Part shown: positions 13,699 to 23,899 of the stretch, piece after piece
How the letters are laid out: every line of letters begins with the position of its first letter
Numbering within the stretch: position 1 is the stretch's first letter
Assembly: GCF_001440475.1 (NCBI RefSeq)
Contig: NZ_LLYB01000123.1
Coordinates: forward strand, 148,125-212,124
DNA: 64,000 bases
Direction of reading: 5' to 3'
DNA from: Bradyrhizobium lablabi
Lineage (GTDB): Bacteria > Pseudomonadota > Alphaproteobacteria > Rhizobiales > Xanthobacteraceae
Position numbers and translations under genes: made by a program
The notes under the pieces: generated by a model
Databases searched by the model: none
Told to the model about the DNA's origin: nothing
What the model saw: the letters and a program-made list of their open reading frames with translations, nothing else

Positions 13699-14307
13699 CT
13701 AGACATTGAGCAGGCCCTCGCCGCGCAGGAATGCCAGTAGCGGCAACAGCGGCAGGCCGAGAATGGTGAAATGGTCGCCCTCGATGCGTTCGAACAGATG
13801 CACGCCCAGCCCTTCGAGCTGATAGGCGCCGACACTGGTCGTGACCGCCTCACCCGCTTGATCAAGATAGTTTTCGATTTCGCTGTCGCTCAAACGCCGC
13901 ATCGTCATTCTGGCGACGCTGACATCGCAAAACCCTATCTTGCCGTTGTGGGCAACCGCAACGGCGGAATGCAGCTCGTGCGTATGGCCGGCCAGCAGGC
14001 GCAATTGATCGGCAGCCTGCGCGCGGCCCGCCGGCTTGCTCAACAGCCGGCTTCCCAAAGCCAGGGTCTGATCGGCGCCGACGACATAGCGGCCGGGATT
14101 TTTTGATGACACGAACTGCGCCTTTTCGCGTGCCAGCAGGCCCGCAATCTCGCCAGGCGACGAAAGGCCGGAATTGGTCTGCAGCGCTCGCTCGTCGATA
14201 TCGGCAGGAACGGCCTTGAACGGAATGCCGGCGTTGGCGAGCAGCGTTTGCCGTGCTCGGCTCTGCGAAGCCAGAATCAGCAGATCTTTTTCGCGCCAGA
14301 TCGTCAT
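13699..14307 (-). CDS. Maf-like nucleotide pyrophosphatase
   Basis: Maf-superfamily nucleoside-triphosphate pyrophosphatase acting on non-canonical or modified nucleotides. The 202-residue protein shows the Maf signature LASQSRARQTLLANAGI, the DERAL segment, and the VVGADQTLALG region near residue 78. The sequence alone does not settle whether it prefers m7GTP (YceF type) or dTTP/UTP. It follows ppsR by 10 bases. Confidence 0.92.
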   Translation of the reverse strand: MTIWREKDLLILASQSRARQTLLANAGIPFKAVPADIDERALQTNSGLSSPGEIAGLLAREKAQFVSSKNPGRYVVGADQTLALGSRLLSKPAGRAQAADQLRLLAGHTHELHSAVAVAHNGKIGFCDVSVARMTMRRLSDSEIENYLDQAGEAVTTSVGAYQLEGLGVHLFERIEGDHFTILGLPLLPLLAFLRGEGLLNV

Positions 14308-14317
14308 CGTATCAGCT

Positions 14318-15157
14318 TCATTCCGGCAGCCGCTGCCGCTGTCGATCGGTGAATAGCTTCAGCACTGCGGCGGCAGTCTCCTCGATCGAGCGTCGCGTGA
14401 CGTCGAGCTGCGCCCAACTGAATTTGGCACTCAGCTTCCGCGCATACGCCACTTCATCGGCCACGGACTGACGATCGATGTAATCATCATTGGGGGTATC
14501 GGCGCCCATGCTCAGCAGACGGTTTTGCCGGACCTGGATCAACCGCTCCGGCGTGGCATGCAGGCTGACGACCAATGGCTTCTTCAATGTCTCAAGCTGG
14601 TGCGGCAGCGGAATGCCCGGCACTAGCGGCACGTTCGCGGTACGCACCCCGCGGTTGGCGAGATAGATCGAGGTCGGCGTCTTAGAGGTGCGGGACACGC
14701 CGACCAGGACCACGTCGGCCTCCTCGAGGCCTTCGACGTGCTGTCCGTCATCGTGCATCATGGTGTAGTTCAACGCGTCGATGCGCTTGAAATATTCCGC
14801 GTTCAGAACGTGCTGGGCCCCTACCCTGCCCGTCGTTGCCGCGCCGAGATAAGCCTCGAACAGTTGCATCACCGGCCCAATGATTGAGAGGCTCGGGATG
14901 TTGATGTCCCTGCACTTGGCTTCGAGCCGGCCGACCAGATCTTTTTCCAGCAGCGTGAAGAGCACGATGCCCGGCGCCTCCTCGATCTCGTCGAGCACGC
15001 GGTCGAGCTGCTTCTGGCTGCGCACCAGCGGATAGACATGCTCGACTGCGGTCACGTTGGCGTACTGCGCAGCGACCGCGCGCGCCACTGTGATCAGCGT
15101 CTCGCCGGTCGAATCCGAGACCAGATGAAGATGAAAATAGTTGCCAGTCGTGGGCAC
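14318..15157 (-). CDS. ppsR: PPDK/PEP synthase regulatory kinase-phosphorylase (DUF299)
   Basis: Bifunctional serine/threonine kinase and pyrophosphorylase that switches pyruvate phosphate dikinase or PEP synthase off and on. The 279-residue protein begins [14 protein letters not shown] and has the P-loop-like [19 protein letters not shown] near residue 155, both hallmarks of the family. Whether the target is PPDK or PEP synthase cannot be told from this window. The start is GTG at 15157, right at the edge of the putative origin region. Confidence 0.93.
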
Positions 15158-15611
15158 CAGAACCCCTGTGTATTCCTGTGAATCCTGTGGAGCTTAACCC
15201 TGACATCAGGCCCTGGATCGTCGCCTCAGGGATAACCCTTGGTTTCTTCACAGGGCCTCACGCGAGGACAAGTCCCACCGCCTCGCGGCAATGATAGTGA
15301 GAAGATGTGGATTTGTCTCTTCATAAGCTGACCACAAAACATCGCAAGCGATTGATGCAAGTGGCGTTATCCGGACGATCCGGTGCCTGGCCAAAATTGG
15401 TGATGGATGTGAACAAGCCGCGCAAAAAGGCGGGACGGTTTTGTGTGAGTCCAAATCACCGTCACTTAGACTCAAACCTAAGATTCTAAAATTATTAGTT
15501 TAGAGAAGCGGAGCTTTGCGGATATGTCTTGCGTCCTCGGCTGGCAGAGCTTCTGCGGCAACGCCGGGATGATCCCAACGTTCCAGGGCGAGCAAGGTCG
15601 GGGCGACTGCA
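15158..15611. other. Candidate chromosomal replication origin (oriC)
   Basis: A 454-base gene-free gap between divergent ppsR and hemJ. Seen in the sequence: DnaA-box-like 9-mers TGTGAACAA at 15409-15417 (reverse TTGTTCACA, one mismatch to TTATNCACA), TTATCCGGA at 15367-15375, TGTGGATTT at 15306-15314 and TGTGAATCC at 15177-15185. There are three GANTC (CcrM methylation) sites at 15447, 15469 and 15482 plus one at 15180. An AT-rich stretch around 15474-15505 could unwind. The parAB-mnmG-rsmG cluster and parS sites follow within 8 kb, as near many origins. The individual boxes are weak; the sum is persuasive. Confidence 0.72.
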
Positions 15612-16058
15612 ATGTACGAGTTCACCATCCTCACGGCGTATCCCTGGATAAAGGCGCTGCATGTGATTGCCGTCATCTCGTGGATGGCCGGCATGCTCTA
15701 TCTGCCGCGGCTGTTCGTCTATCATTGCGAGGCCGAGGTCGGATCGAAGCAGTCCGAGACTTTCAAGGTGATGGAAAGGCGCTTGCTGAAGGCGATCATC
15801 AATCCCGCGATGATCGTCACCTGGCTGGCCGGGCTTTATCTGGTCTGGAGCGGAGATTGGTACCGGTACGGCTGGTTTCACGCCAAGCTGACGCTGGTGC
15901 TCATCCTGTCCGGCGTCCACGGGTTTTTTGTCCGCTGGGTCAAGGATTTCGCCGCCGACCGGAATACCAGAAGCCAGAAATTCTATCGTATTATCAATGA
16001 GGTGCCGACCGTCCTGATGATCTTCATCGTCATCCTGGTGATCGTCAAGCCGTTCTAG
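15612..16058 (+). CDS. hemJ: Protoporphyrinogen IX oxidase HemJ
   Basis: Membrane enzyme for the penultimate step of haem synthesis in bacteria lacking HemG and HemY. The 148-residue protein has four hydrophobic helices. The first carries the conserved histidine in KALHVIAVISWMAGMLYLPRL, and FVYH follows. WFHAKLTLVLILSGVHG near residue 95 is also typical. It lies directly after the presumed origin and before rho. Confidence 0.93.
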   Translation: MYEFTILTAYPWIKALHVIAVISWMAGMLYLPRLFVYHCEAEVGSKQSETFKVMERRLLKAIINPAMIVTWLAGLYLVWSGDWYRYGWFHAKLTLVLILSGVHGFFVRWVKDFAADRNTRSQKFYRIINEVPTVLMIFIVILVIVKPF

Positions 16059-16318: not shown

Positions 16319-17584
16319 ATGCGGGAAATGAAACTCCAAGACCTCAAATCGAAAACGCCGGCCGAGCTCGTCACGTTCGCCGAAGAGAGCGGGGTCGAGA
16401 ATGCCAGCACCATGCGCAAGCAGGAGCTGATGTTCGCCATTCTCAAGCAGCTCGCGATTCAGGAAATCGACATCATCGGCGAAGGCGTCGTCGAGGTTCT
16501 CTCCGACGGCTTCGGCTTTCTGCGCTCGCCTGATGCCAACTACCTGCCCGGCCCCGACGACATCTACGTCTCGCCATCGCAGATCCGCCGCTTCGGCCTT
16601 CGCACCGGCGACACCATCGAAGGCCACATCCGCAGCCCGAAGGAAGGCGAACGCTATTTCGCGCTGCTCAAGGTCAACACACTCAATTTCGAAGATCCGG
16701 AAAAGTCCAAGCACAAGGTCAATTTCGACAATCTGACGCCGCTGTTTCCGGACCAGCGCTTCCGCCTCGAACTCGAAGACCCGACGCGAAAAGACCTCTC
16801 TGCAAGAGTGATCGACATCGTCGCTCCCATCGGCAAAGGCCAGCGCGCGCTGATCGTCGCGCCGCCGCGCACCGGCAAGACGGTGCTGATGCAGAACATC
16901 GCGCACTCCATCACCGCCAATCATCCCGAATGCTATCTGATCGTGCTTCTGATCGACGAACGTCCGGAAGAAGTCACTGACATGCAGCGCTCGGTGAAGG
17001 GCGAGGTGGTGTCGTCGACCTTCGACGAACCCGCCGTGCGTCACGTCCAGGTCGCCGAGATGGTGATCGAGAAAGCCAAGCGCCTGGTCGAGCACGGCCG
17101 CGACGTCGTGATCCTCTTGGACTCGATCACGCGTCTGGGTCGCGCCTACAACACCGTGGTGCCGTCATCCGGCAAGGTGCTGACCGGCGGTGTCGACGCC
17201 AACGCGTTGCAGCGGCCGAAGCGATTCTTCGGCGCCGCGCGCAACATCGAGGAGGGCGGTTCGCTCACGATCATCGCGACTGCGCTGGTCGATACCGGCA
17301 GCCGAATGGACGAAGTCATCTTCGAAGAATTCAAGGGTACCGGTAACTCCGAACTGATCCTCGATCGCAAGGTCTCGGACAAGCGGACCTTCCCGGCGAT
17401 CGACATCTCGCGCTCCGGCACGCGCAAGGAAGAGCTGATCACCGATCCGCAGCTCCTGAAGAAGATGTACGTGCTGCGCCGGATCCTCAATCCGATGGGC
17501 ACGATGGATGCGATCGACTTCCTGCTCGACAAGCTCCGCAACACCAAGAACAACTCGGAGTTCTTCGACTCCATGAATACCTGA
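16319..17584 (+). CDS. rho: Transcription termination factor Rho
   Basis: Hexameric RNA helicase that ends transcription. The 421-residue protein has the N-terminal Rho domain, the RNA-binding [18 protein letters not shown] segment near residue 65, the P-loop [11 protein letters not shown] near residue 180, and [16 protein letters not shown]. The start is either ATG at 16319 or ATG at 16328 ([11 protein letters not shown]); the upstream CAGGA favours 16319. It is the usual short alphaproteobacterial form without large insertions. An intrinsic terminator follows. Confidence 0.97.
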
Positions 17585-17607
17585 GCCGCCAAAGTAAAGC
17601 TTAGGGG

Positions 17608-17638
17608 AGGGCGCCTCGCACCGCGGGGCGCCCTTTTT
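17608..17638 (+). terminator. Intrinsic terminator after rho
   Basis: Perfect 8-bp stem AGGGCGCC (17608-17615) with GGCGCCCT (17627-17634), an 11-base loop and a run of T at 17634-17638. It lies 24 bases after the rho stop. Confidence 0.88.
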
Positions 17639-17696
17639 CATGTTGCGGCGGCCGTTCCATTGCGGTGCAGCATGAAAAATCGGCTTTAGCGATTGG

Positions 17697-17704
17697 TTAA
17701 CCAT
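17697..17704 (+). promoter_or_regulatory. CtrA-type half site upstream of mnmE
   Basis: TTAACCAT in an AT-rich stretch between rho and mnmE, identical to the half-site form bound by the cell-cycle regulator CtrA in Caulobacter. A single 8-mer can occur by chance. The rest of the 230-base gap after the rho terminator shows nothing else. Confidence 0.3.
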
Positions 17705-17870
17705 ATAAGGTATTGAATTTTATACTATTTAGTTCTGCTCGGGGTTTGGGGCAGGGTACCTCGCTGGATTTCACAGCATTTTTGCCGCTTCTGCTAACGG
17801 TATCGCCAGTGCGTTCAGGCCTCGAGTTTGAATCGCGTTGCCTTTTCAAAACCTCCCGCGCAAATAGGCC

Positions 17871-19216: not shown

Positions 19217-19232
19217 TGTTTCACGTGAAACA
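19217..19232. promoter_or_regulatory. parS: parS centromere site 1
   Basis: TGTTTCACGTGAAACA, a perfect 16-base palindrome identical to the classical ParB-binding parS consensus. It lies in the mnmE-mnmG gap, 33 bases from a second copy (start to start). Confidence 0.96.
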
Positions 19233-19249: not shown

Positions 19250-19265
19250 TGTTTCACGTGAAACA
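19250..19265. promoter_or_regulatory. parS: parS centromere site 2
   Basis: Second perfect TGTTTCACGTGAAACA palindrome, in the same gap and 57 bases before the mnmG start. ParB encoded 4 kb downstream is the expected partner. Confidence 0.96.
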
Positions 19266-19321: not shown

Positions 19322-21205
19322 ATGATTTCCGAAGCGGACTCCTTCGACGTCATCGTCATCGGTGGCGGCCACGCCGGCTGCGAGGCTGCGAGCGCGGCTG
19401 CGCGCATGGGCGCGAAGGCCGCTCTGCTGACCCATCGCTTTGCGACGATCGGGGCGATGTCCTGCAATCCCGCCATCGGCGGTCTCGGCAAGGGCCATCT
19501 GGTCCGCGAAGTCGATGCCCTGGACGGTCTGATGGGTCGGGTGGCCGATGCCGGCGGCATCCAGTTTCGGATGCTGAACGGTCGCAAGGGTCCGGCAGTC
19601 CGCGGTCCGCGCGCCCAGGCAGACCGAAAACTTTATGCTGCGGCGATGCAGACCGCGATCCGGGAGACTGCAAACCTCGGCGTGATCGAAGGCGAGGCGG
19701 ATGAGCTGATCGTTTCGAACGGCCGGGTGAGGGGTGTTCGACTGGGGGATGGGCGCGAGCTCGCGGCCGGCGCGGTCGTTATTACGACCGGCACTTTCCT
19801 GCGGGGTCTCATCCATCTCGGCGAAAAGAACTGGCCCGCCGGCCGCGTCGGCGAGGCGCCGGCGATGGGACTTTCGACGTCCTTTGAGCGTGCCGGATTT
19901 ACGCTGGGACGGTTGAAGACCGGTACGCCGCCACGGCTCGATGGCACGTCGATCGACTGGTCCGCCGTGGAGATGCAGCCCGGAGACGATCCGCCGGAGC
20001 CGTTCTCGGTCATGACGGACCGGATCACGACGCCGCAGATCCAGTGCGGCATCACGCGGACGACGCCGGCGACCCATGAGGTGATCCGGGCCAACGTCCA
20101 TCGCTCCCCGATGTATTCCGGTCAGATCAAGAGCAGCGGTCCGCGCTATTGTCCCTCGATCGAGGACAAGATCGTCCGCTTTGGCGATCGCGATGGGCAC
20201 CAGATCTTCCTGGAGCCCGAAGGGCTCGACGACTCCACGGTCTATCCCAACGGCATCTCGACCTCGCTGCCGGAGGAAGTCCAACTCGCGATCCTCGCCA
20301 CCATTCCCGGACTTGAGCGGGTGAAGATGGTCCGGCCGGGCTACGCCATCGAATACGACCATGTCGATCCGCGGGAGCTGGACCCGACCTTGCAGACCAA
20401 GCGTCTGCCGGGTCTCTTTCTGGCCGGGCAGATCAATGGCACGACCGGATACGAGGAGGCGGCGGCGCAAGGGATCGTCGCCGGCCTGAACGCCGCACTG
20501 ATGGCTGGCGGCGCCGAGCCGACCGTGTTCGATCGCGCCGACGGCTATCTCGGGGTGATGATCGACGACCTCGTGACCCGCGGGATCACCGAGCCGTACC
20601 GGATGTTCACCTCGCGGGCGGAGTACCGTCTGACTCTTCGGGCTGATAACGCCGACCAGCGTCTGACCGACAAGGGCATCGCTCTGGGCTGCGTAGGGCA
20701 GGCGCGTTCGCAGCGGCATCGCGAGAAGATGGCTGCGTTGGAAGCTGCCAAGGCTTTGGCCAGGTCGCTGGCCATCACTCCGAACGAAGCGGCCAAGTAT
20801 GGCCTCGCACTCAACCGCGACGGCCATCGCCGATCGGCATTCGAGCTGCTGGCCTATCCAGAAATCGAGTGGACGACCCTGCGAGGGATCTGGCCGGAGC
20901 TCTCGGTCATCGATCCGTCGATCGCCGTCCATCTTGAGATCGACGCCAAATACGATGTCTACCTCAAGCGCCAGACTGCCGACGTCGATGCCTTCCGTCG
21001 TGACGAGGGCCTGGTCCTGACCGGCATCGACTATGCCGATGTGCCCGGGCTTTCGAACGAGGCGCGGTCAAAGCTTCAGGCAGCGCAGCCACGGACCGTG
21101 GGGCAGGCGGGTCGGCTCGACGGATTGACGCCGGCGGCGCTGGGAATTCTGGCGGCCTATCTCCGGCGCGAAGCGCGGCGGAAGAACGCGAAGGTGACGA
21201 CTTAA
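19322..21205 (+). CDS. mnmG: tRNA uridine 5-carboxymethylaminomethyl enzyme MnmG (GidA)
   Basis: FAD-dependent partner of MnmE. The 627-residue protein has the FAD-binding [17 protein letters not shown] at about residue 14 and the signature [21 protein letters not shown] near residue 50 (read in two parts). [17 protein letters not shown] lies near residue 380, and the C-terminal MnmE-binding domain is complete. It sits between two parS sites upstream and one downstream, a placement common near origins. Confidence 0.97.
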
Positions 21206-21210
21206 GAATC

Positions 21211-21226
21211 TGTTTCACGTGAAACG
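21211..21226. promoter_or_regulatory. parS: parS centromere site 3
   Basis: TGTTTCACGTGAAACG, matching the parS consensus except the last base. It lies six bases after the mnmG stop and about 1.95 kb from the other two sites. Confidence 0.93.
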
Positions 21227-21324: not shown

Positions 21325-22023
21325 ATGGCGAAAGCCGCCGCTCACACCCTCTCCTCGCCCCTGCTCTCCGACAAGGCCACTGGCCTAGCCCTCACCCCCG
21401 TTTCATCCGAAACGGAGGCGCGGCTCGATCGCTACGTCGCCTTGCTTCTGGAGTGGCAGATCAAAACGAATCTGGTGGCGCCATCGACGCTTCCGAATCT
21501 GTGGACGCGGCACGTCTCCGATTCGCTCCAGCTTTTGAGTCTGGTTCCATCGGCCAAGACCTGGGTCGATCTCGGCAGCGGCGGCGGTTTCCCTGGCGTG
21601 GTGCTGGCCTGCGCGCTGGCAGAAACACCCGGCGCCAATGTCCATTTGGTCGAGCGCAACGCCAAAAAAGCGGCCTTCCTGCGCGAGGCAGTTCGCGTAA
21701 CTTCTGCGTCTGCGACCGTGCATTTGGCGGGAATCGGGGATATTGTGGATAGAATTGGAAGTCGCGTTGATTGCGTCACTGCGCGAGCGCTGGCTCCATT
21801 ACATCAGCTCGTCGGCTTCGCGGAGCCGTTTGTGAGCAGCGGCGCGAAAGCGTTGTTCCTCAAGGGCCAAGATGTAGAGGCTGAATTGACCGAAGCCACT
21901 AAATATTGGAATATTCAACCGCGACTCCATTCCAGCCGCACGGGCGGGCACGGCTGGATCGTCGAACTCGATCGGATCGAGCGGCGCAACCCCTCCGCGA
22001 TCACACATGGCGATCGGGCATGA
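21325..22023 (+). CDS. rsmG: 16S rRNA (guanine-N7) methyltransferase RsmG (GidB)
   Basis: Methylates N7 of a guanine in the 530 loop of 16S rRNA (G527 in E. coli numbering). The 232-residue protein has the SAM motif WVDLGSGGGFPGVVLAC near residue 78 and LVERNAKKAAFLREA. I chose the ATG at 21325; an earlier in-frame start adds an unsupported 17 residues. Its stop overlaps the parA start (ATGA). Confidence 0.95.
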   Translation: MAKAAAHTLSSPLLSDKATGLALTPVSSETEARLDRYVALLLEWQIKTNLVAPSTLPNLWTRHVSDSLQLLSLVPSAKTWVDLGSGGGFPGVVLACALAETPGANVHLVERNAKKAAFLREAVRVTSASATVHLAGIGDIVDRIGSRVDCVTARALAPLHQLVGFAEPFVSSGAKALFLKGQDVEAELTEATKYWNIQPRLHSSRTGGHGWIVELDRIERRNPSAITHGDRA

Positions 22024-22868
22024 GCGAATTAGACCAGTTATATCAAGAAGATAGAGATCAAACCCCACCGCCCCATCCACGCATCCTATCGCTCGCGAAT
22101 CAGAAGGGCGGCGTGGGCAAAACGACCACGGCAATCAATCTGGGTACCGCGCTCGCGGCAATTGGCGAGCGCGTCCTGATCGTCGACCTCGATCCGCAGG
22201 GCAACGCCTCTACCGGTCTCGGCATCGATCGCCGCAACCGCAGCTGCTCGACCTATGACGTGCTGATCGGCGAAGCGCCGCTGCGTGATGCGGTGGTTGC
22301 CACCGCGGTGCCGCGGCTGCACATCGCCTCCTCGACCATGGATCTGTCGGGCCTCGAGCTCGAACTCGGCACGACGCCCGGCCGCGCCTTCCGCCTGCGC
22401 GACGCGATCGCGGCGTTGAACAAGAACGCCGCGCCGGACACCGACTACACCTATGTGCTGATCGATTGTCCGCCGTCGCTGAATCTTCTCACCGTCAACG
22501 CGATGGCGGCGTCGGATGCGATCCTGGTGCCGTTGCAATGTGAATTCTTCGCGCTCGAAGGTCTGTCGCAATTGCTGCAGACGGTGGAGCAGGTGCGCTC
22601 GACGCTCAATCCGAACCTGTCGATCCACGGCATCGTGCTGACCATGTTCGACTCGCGCAACAACCTGTCGAACCAGGTGGTCGCCGACGTCAGGCAGTTC
22701 ATGGGCGGCAAGGTCTATGACACCATGATTCCCCGTAACGTGCGCATCTCCGAGGCGCCGTCCTACGGCAAGCCGGTGCTGGTCTACGATCTCAAATGCG
22801 TCGGCAGTGAAGCGTACCTGAAGCTGGCAACGGAAGTGATCCAGCGCGAGCGCGAGCTGAGGCATTAG
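22020..22868 (+). CDS. parA: Chromosome partitioning ATPase ParA
   Basis: Deviant Walker-A ATPase that moves ParB-parS complexes to the daughter poles. The 282-residue protein begins with a short linker, then SLANQKGGVGKTTTAINL (P-loop with the signature lysine) near residue 27 and the YVLIDCPPSLNLLTVNA Walker B region near residue 145. The start ATG at 22020 overlaps the rsmG stop by four bases, suggesting coupled translation. Confidence 0.97.
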   Translation: MSELDQLYQEDRDQTPPPHPRILSLANQKGGVGKTTTAINLGTALAAIGERVLIVDLDPQGNASTGLGIDRRNRSCSTYDVLIGEAPLRDAVVATAVPRLHIASSTMDLSGLELELGTTPGRAFRLRDAIAALNKNAAPDTDYTYVLIDCPPSLNLLTVNAMAASDAILVPLQCEFFALEGLSQLLQTVEQVRSTLNPNLSIHGIVLTMFDSRNNLSNQVVADVRQFMGGKVYDTMIPRNVRISEAPSYGKPVLVYDLKCVGSEAYLKLATEVIQRERELRH

Positions 22869-22961: not shown

Positions 22962-23017
22962 AAGTAACCGAATTCAGTTCCGGAGTAGCTTAAGTGAATC
23001 CTAGGGAGTTGGCGGCG

Positions 23018-23899
23018 ATGGCCGACAAAACAGGTTCGCGACTGGGCCGTGGCCTCGCAAGTCTGATCGGGGATGTCGGTGGCGAGGCCGCGCACGCCGA
23101 ACGGCCACGCAACCAGCGCAAGGTGCCGATCGAGTTTCTGAAACCGAATCCGCGCAACCCGCGCCGGACCTTTTCCGATGCCGAGCTCGGCGAGCTTGCG
23201 GCCTCCGTCAAGCAGCATGGCGTGATCCAGCCGATCGTGGTCCGCCCGGTGAAGGGCGCGCAGGACCGCTACGAGATCATCGCCGGCGAACGGCGCTGGC
23301 GCGCCGCGCAACTCGCCAGCCTGCACGAGGTGCCGATCGTCCCGATCGAAGTCAGCGACTCTGACGCGCTCGAGATCATGATCATCGAGAACGTGCAGCG
23401 TGAAGACCTCAATGCGATGGAAGAGGCGCAGGGCTATCACGCGCTGGCCGACGAATTCAAACGCAGCCAGGAAGACATCGCCAAGGAAGTCGGCAAGAGC
23501 CGCAGCCACGTCGCCAACATGATGCGGCTGACGAAACTGCCGACGGAAGTGCAGGCCCTTATCTCAAGCGGCGAATTGTCGGCCGGTCACGCTCGCGCGC
23601 TGATCGGCGTGCCCGATCCGCTGGCCGCGGCGAAGCGCATCGTCGCCGAAGGCCTCAACGTGCGGCAGACCGAGGCGCTTGCCCATGAAGAAGGCGTGCC
23701 GGAGCGCAAGCCGCAAAAGGCGAGGGGCGGCGGCAAGACGAAGGACCCCGACACGATCGCACTGGAGAAGCGCGTCAGCGATGCGCTCGGCCTCACCGTC
23801 ACCGTCAACCACCGCGACCCCGGCGGCTCGGTTCAGATCAGCTACCGCAACCTCGAGCAACTCGACGAGGTGATGCGGCGGCTGGAGAAGGGGAAGTGA
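23018..23899 (+). CDS. parB: Chromosome partitioning protein ParB
   Basis: CTP-dependent clamp that loads at parS and spreads. The 293-residue protein has the N-terminal RLGRGLASLIGD ParA-contact motif and the CTP-binding AGERRWRAAQLA and ENVQREDLN segments around residues 87-135. A helix-turn-helix follows (DIAKEVGKSRSHVANMMRL), then the C-terminal dimer domain. I chose the ATG at 23018, with AGGGAG 10 bases upstream, over the GTG at 22994. The linker at about 220-240 is lysine-rich. Confidence 0.97.
   Translation: MADKTGSRLGRGLASLIGDVGGEAAHAERPRNQRKVPIEFLKPNPRNPRRTFSDAELGELAASVKQHGVIQPIVVRPVKGAQDRYEIIAGERRWRAAQLASLHEVPIVPIEVSDSDALEIMIIENVQREDLNAMEEAQGYHALADEFKRSQEDIAKEVGKSRSHVANMMRLTKLPTEVQALISSGELSAGHARALIGVPDPLAAAKRIVAEGLNVRQTEALAHEEGVPERKPQKARGGGKTKDPDTIALEKRVSDALGLTVTVNHRDPGGSVQISYRNLEQLDEVMRRLEKGK

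Follow-up and report, generated by a model that had tools for sequence, protein, structure and literature searches.

A putative chromosomal replication origin between ppsR and hemJ in Bradyrhizobium lablabi, with GANTC sites in its AT-rich block

Background

Where does replication of the Bradyrhizobium lablabi chromosome begin? In Caulobacter crescentus the neighbourhood of the origin, Cori, adjoins ppsR, and in B. lablabi the start of ppsR (15157, minus strand) is separated from the start of the divergent gene hemJ (15612, plus strand) by 454 bp. The DNA analysed here (the window) is a stretch of 64,000 nucleotides, positions 148,125–212,124 of the 284-kb contig C123 in a draft genome of 8.8 Mb and 135 contigs. 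An initial annotation of the window, made from the sequence and its open reading frames, had proposed the space at 15158–15611 as a gene-free gap that could be the chromosomal origin, and the gene calls agree with the first half of that proposal. Based on these calls and on the comparison with 78 orthologous gaps, we regard the whole intergenic gap (15158–15611) as the putative chromosomal oriC of Bradyrhizobium, located at the Caulobacter position beside ppsR, with hemJ replacing an ancestral hemE. We assign this reading a probability of roughly 95%. Four lines of evidence agree: the minimum of the GC skew, a dif-like site at the antipode in the complete genome of strain BTAi1, a cluster of DnaA boxes, and parS-like sites nearby. 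Published predictions point the same way.

Sequence sets

The close orthologs are 78 of 80 loci, namely those in which hemJ was found; their gaps are 390–484 bp long and all 78 were aligned with the gap of the window. Their records bear the name Bradyrhizobium or Tardiphaga, except for four metagenome-assembled genomes under broader names (L020, L024, L033, L036). At the level of the order (the name Hyphomicrobiales is inferred from Bradyrhizobium) a ppsR match was found in 127 of 150 genomes, and the best 30 of these 127 loci comprise 4 within the genus and 26 outside it (L151–L176); one of the 26, L167, belongs to the same family and was left out of the count of GANTC sites in AT-rich segments, which leaves 25. 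The family set holds 70 loci from 41 genera, out of 119 family genomes. For the set with one gap per genus we excluded gaps shorter than 300 bp and any locus for which no neighbour was found, and so retained 39 of the 41 genera.

Results

Gene content of the locus

The minus strand to the left of the gap carries dnaQ-coaE-maf-ppsR (dnaQ was called by reading the translation) and the plus strand to the right carries hemJ-rho-mnmE-mnmG-rsmG-parA-parB, with transcription on both sides directed away from the gap. Scores above the cut-offs were obtained for ppsR, the PPDK/PEP synthase regulator (14318–15157, minus; NCBIfam NF003742), hemJ, protoporphyrinogen oxidase (15612–16058, plus; TIGR00701), rho (16319–17584, plus; TIGR00767) and parB (22994–23899, plus; TIGR00180). 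PpsR shares 100% identity with its counterpart in Bradyrhizobium jicamae PAC68 over 279 residues, which suggests a close kinship with B. jicamae. Among the neighbours named in the initial annotation, mnmG, rsmG and parB are all present near the gap, while parA can be kept in a weaker form: the top matches of the gene at 22020–22868 (plus) are ParA-type ATPases, but the scores fall under the curated cut-offs, and we call it parA-like. ARAGORN reports a tRNA-Arg (tcg) of 94 bases at 19841–19934, inside mnmG, which is probably a false call. No structured RNA, such as CcnA in Caulobacter, was matched in Rfam at the gathering score between positions 14000 and 20000.

Position of the gap on the chromosome

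In the 252 of 284 kb of the contig that were read, the cumulative GC skew reaches its minimum 2.0 kb to the right of the gap, and the skew is -0.018 to the left of the gap and +0.012 to its right. The best change point, near 166,000, was equalled by none of 5000 block permutations. For the complete BTAi1 genome (locus L050) the skew data comprise 400 contiguous kb and 40 sampled tiles, and the minimum of the contiguous part lies 2.4 kb to the right of the orthologous gap. A skew minimum far from the window had been named as an observation that would speak against the origin; the minima of the two genomes are instead close to the gap, as anticipated for a DnaA-dependent oriC, if not exactly at it. 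Among 60 BTAi1 tiles of 20 kb, with the arms split at the gap and at the dif-like site, G exceeds C in 26 of 30 on the right arm versus 4 of 30 on the left. The strand bias of GGGNAGGG, the KOPS motif of E. coli, switches as the skew does: the counts are 3/16 to the left of the gap and 9/0 to the right on the B. lablabi contig, and 18/56 on the left arm and 63/20 on the right arm in the BTAi1 tiles.

A search with a dif pattern at three mismatches yielded one dif-like site per genome in each of three genomes. The BTAi1 site, at 4,292,339, is opposite the gap and divides the chromosome into arms of 4.127 and 4.138 Mb, equal to 0.3%. One result counts against the proposed origin: if the 8.65-Mb contig of B. 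erythrophlei GAS478 (L031; contig G002:C4) is a complete circle, the origin block and the dif-like site would split it into very unequal arms of 5.9 and 2.8 Mb, an asymmetry that suggests a rearrangement, an insertion or a matter of assembly. In each of the three genomes searched, every parS-like site with up to one mismatch falls within 6 kb of the gap. The window has two exact sites, TGTTTCACGTGAAACA at 19217–19232 and a second at 19250–19265, both in the mnmE-mnmG gap, and one site with a single mismatch at 21211–21226.

As in many other bacteria, the origin might be expected to adjoin dnaA. The BTAi1 record has dnaA about 1 kb from its start, which was probably set at that gene, and the dnaA locus of B. 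lablabi, on a different contig from the gap, has one exact TTATCCACA. Against such a placement, 164 kb separate BTAi1 dnaA from the gap, with a similar distance to the skew minimum and to the dif antipode, the skew between 1 and 160 kb of BTAi1 is still negative (-0.019), and DnaA boxes with at most one mismatch are few around dnaA (0 in 2955 bp in BTAi1, 2 in 3489 bp in B. lablabi, 3 in 3489 bp in GAS478). We consider the chance of an origin beside dnaA to be negligible.

GC skew was rejected as a fine locator, as it points 2 kb off. The mean skew profile of 68–78 relatives shows no clean switch at the gap within 6 kb, and an excess of C across the hemJ-rho gap and the beginning of rho (mean skew in 75 loci -0.10 and -0.08, respectively) can push the minimum rightward. 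A single change point fitted to the 400 kb of BTAi1 comes out best at 270 kb, away from the gap, because the statistic is drawn off by a second local fall of the skew at about 230–270 kb (G001:C1), 65–105 kb to the right of the origin, perhaps an inversion or inserted DNA; the skew therefore locates the origin only coarsely.

The skew minima of the two genomes lie in the rho-mnmE gap (17585–17870), and a rival reading would put the origin there and make the ppsR-hemJ gap a mere divergent regulatory region. No 40-bp stretch of the window is richer in AT or less stable than the one at 17697 (80% AT), which also lies in the rho-mnmE gap. However, in 69 orthologs this gap exhibits no enrichment of DnaA boxes (4 versus 9.7 expected) or of GANTC sites (51 versus 61.9 expected), an origin located there would leave hemJ and rho to be read against the fork, and the published predictions point to a gap of the ppsR-hemJ type and not to rho-mnmE. 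This placement is in our opinion very improbable. The rho-mnmE spacing in the 69 relatives measured is 155–412 bp between matches.

DnaA boxes

With TTATNCACA as the consensus, the ppsR-hemJ gap contains no exact box, two boxes with one mismatch (15244, plus; 15408, minus) and seven with two mismatches, which bears out the report of DnaA-box-like 9-mers in both orientations. At the rate of the window 0.07 one-mismatch boxes would be expected, and the probability of at least two is 0.0016, uncorrected for the number of gaps. Both sites are putative weak boxes conserved among the 78 orthologs: TTCTTCACA (15244–15252, plus) differs from TTATNCACA by no more than one letter in 77, and TTGTTCACA (15408–15416, minus) in 75. 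The suggestion that the alphaproteobacterial DnaA consensus may differ from that of E. coli is borne out in part, in that the two retained boxes deviate at the third letter. Secondary box-like sites are AAATCCACA (15306–15314, minus; two mismatches or fewer in 48 of 78 orthologs, one or fewer in none) and ATATCCGCA (15517–15525, minus; 63 and 3 of 78, respectively), the latter adjoining the AT-rich block. Three TGTG elements (15167, 15177 and 15186, within 15167–15194, minus), spaced by 9–10 bp, are possible very weak boxes judging from the sequence and the alignment; at these columns none of the 78 orthologs has a box within one mismatch, and 3 have one at column 15176.

Boxes with at most one mismatch number 178 versus 19 expected in the 78 close orthologous gaps (9.4-fold over dinucleotide shuffles; these gaps are related, not independent) and 43 versus 5.4 expected in the 26 order-level gaps (8-fold). 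The hemJ-rho gap shows no such enrichment (5 versus 5.9 expected, 75 loci). In BTAi1, where 1.2 of 8.3 Mb were scanned and 106 boxes found, the densest 450 bp are this very gap, with 5 boxes, followed by 2 in the next. The enrichment in both sets of gaps and the BTAi1 scan constitute the box cluster of a DnaA-dependent oriC.

The module of a DnaA box and DnaA-trios, coded here from the available part of PMC8287927 as a box, a spacer of 0–16 and at least three NAN triplets, has no match in the gap of the window, and the basal unwinding system was thus not recognised there in the form given by that part of the source. By the same rule the module is present in 29% of 79 gaps versus 1% and 7% in two neighbouring gaps, and the mean best trio run is 0.99 versus 0.50 in shuffled sequences (79 gaps) and 0.85 versus 0.40 in the 26 order-level gaps. 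As for IHF, the exact consensus occurs in 1 of 78 close gaps (2.0 shuffled) and in 5 of 26 order-level gaps (0.8), and the consensus with one mismatch in 60 of 78 (25.4 shuffled) and 18 of 26 (10.4); the gap of the window has one such one-mismatch site, at 15345.

The box-like site at 15306 is inside a promoter-like element, a candidate promoter of ppsR (15291–15319, minus; GAGACA-17-TATCAT), which is well kept in the alignment, and ppsR transcription might respond to DnaA. A scan for promoter-like consensus elements found 2 such sites in a 1-kb region versus 0.5 in shuffles.

The AT-rich block and its GANTC sites

The AT-rich stretch of the initial annotation corresponds to 15466–15505, which with 75% AT is the second of the window and likely the DNA unwinding element. 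It shows 89% mean identity to the 78 orthologs, the highest of 13 blocks into which the gap was cut by eye, and the least stable 50-mer of the gap begins 1–20 bp ahead of AGACTC in 78 of 79 sequences. By composition, stability and conservation the block has the properties of the AT-rich unwinding element of a DnaA-dependent oriC, its melting being predicted. The 28-base core of the block has one exact copy in the B. lablabi genome and one in GAS478; in BTAi1 it has no match within three mismatches, because the BTAi1 copy has an extra T.

Four GANTC sites, the last three within 40 bp, are present in the gap as first described, and the alignment separates them. GAATC at 15180–15184 is not conserved (9 of 78 orthologs), unlike GAGTC at 15447–15451, just ahead of the AT-rich block (61 of 78), and GACTC at 15469–15473 and GATTC at 15482–15486, both within the block and 13 bp apart (76 of 78 each). 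The run of three in 40 bp is the sole one in the window (the next best has two) and arose in 81 of 5000 simulations from the dinucleotide make-up of the gap. The window holds 150 GANTC sites where a first-order Markov model gives 344 on average, and this scarcity makes the origin cluster stand out more. Yet 191 of 200 Markov windows, from a model richer in GANTC than the window, have a run of three somewhere, and the cluster alone is therefore not decisive. Since the boxes and the GANTC run are modest signals in a single sequence, the case rests on comparison.

In the family set with one gap per genus, a total of 84 GANTC sites fall in the AT-richest 60 bp ±4 bp, and 34 of the 39 genera have one or more there; in the 25 other order-level gaps the same segment has 37 sites, with one or more in 18 of the gaps. 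Seven other palindromes of equal make-up give 3–33 in the family and 2–11 at order level, and the top two family controls, AGNCT and CTNAG, fit the contexts A-GANTC-T and CTAAGANTC. As a further control, 82 AT-rich 60-mers elsewhere in BTAi1, drawn from 40 of the 60 tiles, hold 0.22 GANTC each. The pair with a 13-bp step, which in the window forms two tandem 13-mers led by GANTC, recurs in 9 of 10 hemJ-type genera (the step is 14 bp in g110 and BTAi1), while among hemE-type genera a 13-bp step is found only in g117 and the other close pairs are 7–20 bp apart. The B. lablabi genome encodes a CcrM-like protein, with a RAMA domain and a DPPY motif in the translation; among 14 control genomes, a RAMA domain was found in Caulobacter only.

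Could the conserved blocks simply serve the expression of ppsR and hemJ, as promoters and leader elements that CcrM/GcrA may control, and have no origin function? Promoters under CcrM/GcrA control carry GANTC sites, and the promoter-like element at 15291–15319 coincides with one of the conserved blocks. Such a reading leaves unexplained the switch of the skew, the dif antipode, the box cluster and parS; moreover, the AT-rich block with GANTC is seen whether hemE or hemJ stands to the right of the gap, and a simple consensus scan found no promoter-like site on the plus strand of the gap. We consider a purely regulatory role even less probable than an origin between rho and mnmE, and the promoter and origin readings are compatible, as origins may contain promoters.

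Probable loss of hemE and of exact CtrA boxes

The origin of Caulobacter is bordered by hemE, and the absence of this gene from the window had been noted. The only hemE match of the genome is indeed on another contig (C131), and hemJ adjoins the gap. The comparison accounts for this: among the best 30 of 127 order-level loci, hemJ is at the gap in 4 of 4 within the genus and hemE in 26 of 26 outside it, and hemE is gone from this spot in this lineage; in 3 of the 26 the start of hemJ is visible beyond hemE. The 70 family loci comprise 35 with hemJ, 33 with hemE (30 of these with a hemJ match also in the stretch that was read) and 2 with neither found; by genus, 10 have hemJ only, 30 have hemE (g122 having both kinds) and 1 is undetermined. 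This distribution makes ppsR-origin-hemE-hemJ the most likely ancestral order, from which hemE was probably lost at the origin flank several times. A single loss was not supported, as the ppsR tree (101 columns, 19 of 63 inner branches open) needs 5 hemE/hemJ changes, 3 of them forced by well-supported branches.

The exact CtrA box (TTAA-N7-TTAA) is present in none of the 78 close orthologs, and with one mismatch in 12 of the 78 versus 9 shuffled; degenerate CtrA sites may still occur there. It does occur in 11 of 26 order-level gaps, where other spacers of 3–13 give 0 or 1 of 26, so the order-level box is a real signal. In the family the exact box was found in 0 of 35 hemJ-type and 8 of 33 hemE-type loci. 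The B. lablabi genome nevertheless has CtrA, with a receiver domain 91% identical over 127 residues. We rejected a link between the loss of CtrA boxes and that of hemE: in the nearest hemE-bearing relatives (g119, g122, g124) an exact box is found in 0 of 5 loci, and for this reason the CtrA boxes appear to have been lost before, or apart from, hemE. Some CtrA boxes in origin gaps of other Hyphomicrobiales overlap GANTC, e.g. TTAAGATTCACTTAA in L234.

Discussion

Proposed mechanism

The location signals, the box enrichment, the conservation and the nearby parS sites are features of the sequences themselves; from them we infer DnaA binding, melting, helicase loading and any effect of GANTC methylation. 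DnaA would bind the two conserved weak boxes at 15244 (plus) and 15408 (minus), and also the degenerate boxes at 15306 and 15517 and perhaps the TGTG elements at 15167–15194. Its oligomerisation would melt the AT-rich block at 15466–15505, the helicase would be loaded, and two forks would proceed toward the opposite dif site, while parS, 4–6 kb to the right, together with ParAB would separate the copied origins.

A more tentative idea concerns the GANTC sites. Selection in Hyphomicrobiales may have built CcrM sites into the unwinding element, such that its methylation state, full before initiation and hemimethylated after it, tunes melting or the access of DnaA; the arrangement would have evolved independently of the E. 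coli 13-mers with their Dam/GATC sites and, in Bradyrhizobium, would operate at an origin with neither exact CtrA boxes nor hemE. We regard this as a rather unlikely scenario. A placement of GANTC inside the unwinding element was not found in the literature searched, as far as the available text of those sources goes, which is no proof of absence.

In a genus of legume symbionts, the analysis locates the origin on several kinds of evidence and identifies the few positions that are truly conserved. It also sharpens the notion of GANTC clustering: averaged over the genera of the family, the 60 bp of the origin richest in AT contain two CcrM sites. It further suggests that hemE and CtrA boxes are unreliable marks of alphaproteobacterial origins.

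Comparison with known systems

The E. coli oriC has an AT-rich unwinding element with 13-mers led by GATC. Both there and in the gap described here, units spaced by 13 bp begin with an adenine-methylation site (GATC and GANTC, respectively); unlike in E. coli, there are two GANTC-led units here and the methylase is different, and we know of no counterpart of SeqA for the GANTC system. The resemblance is a likeness, not homology.

With Cori of Caulobacter crescentus the gap shares its place beside ppsR with parAB nearby, but hemJ and not hemE adjoins the origin here. Both have weak DnaA boxes (for Cori, PMC4468827), an AT-rich region and GANTC sites (for Cori, PMC8959179, PMC3973325), and several GANTC motifs are reported in the origins of Caulobacter and its close relatives (PMC3973325). 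Cori has five full CtrA boxes (PMC8959179), in contrast to the lack of an exact box in the close orthologs.

An origin prediction for Oligotropha carboxidovorans (PMC3091675) names tgtttcacg as a "DnaA box". These are the first nine letters of the parS-like site TGTTTCACGTGAAACA, and the prediction may have taken a parS cluster for the origin. Automatic predictions, this suggests, can mistake parS for DnaA boxes.

The closest precedents are the predicted origins of Bradyrhizobium USDA110, USDA6T and DOA9. PMC3927601 places the origin of USDA110 between bll0636 and blr0637, with 82% identity over 391 bp to USDA6T, on the evidence of a GC-skew shift and dif opposite, and for DOA9 PMC4339197 gives orthologs of 846 and 510 bp, separated by 385 bp. 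By strand and size this is the same kind of divergent gene pair, predicted from the same type of evidence; bll0636/blr0637 would correspond to ppsR/hemJ by these two properties, not by sequence. Those papers, in their available text, give the position of the gap and its conservation, while the boxes, the AT-rich block and the GANTC sites are resolved here in three partly overlapping sets of loci, with 78 close orthologs, 70 from the family and 26 at order level. The place of the origin in Bradyrhizobium had thus been predicted, and the present locus is a well-supported further case. What is apparently new, as read from the compared sequences, is that hemE once stood beside this origin and was then lost, probably repeatedly, that exact CtrA boxes are absent from it, and that CcrM sites are located in the AT-richest part of the origin in most genera of the family.
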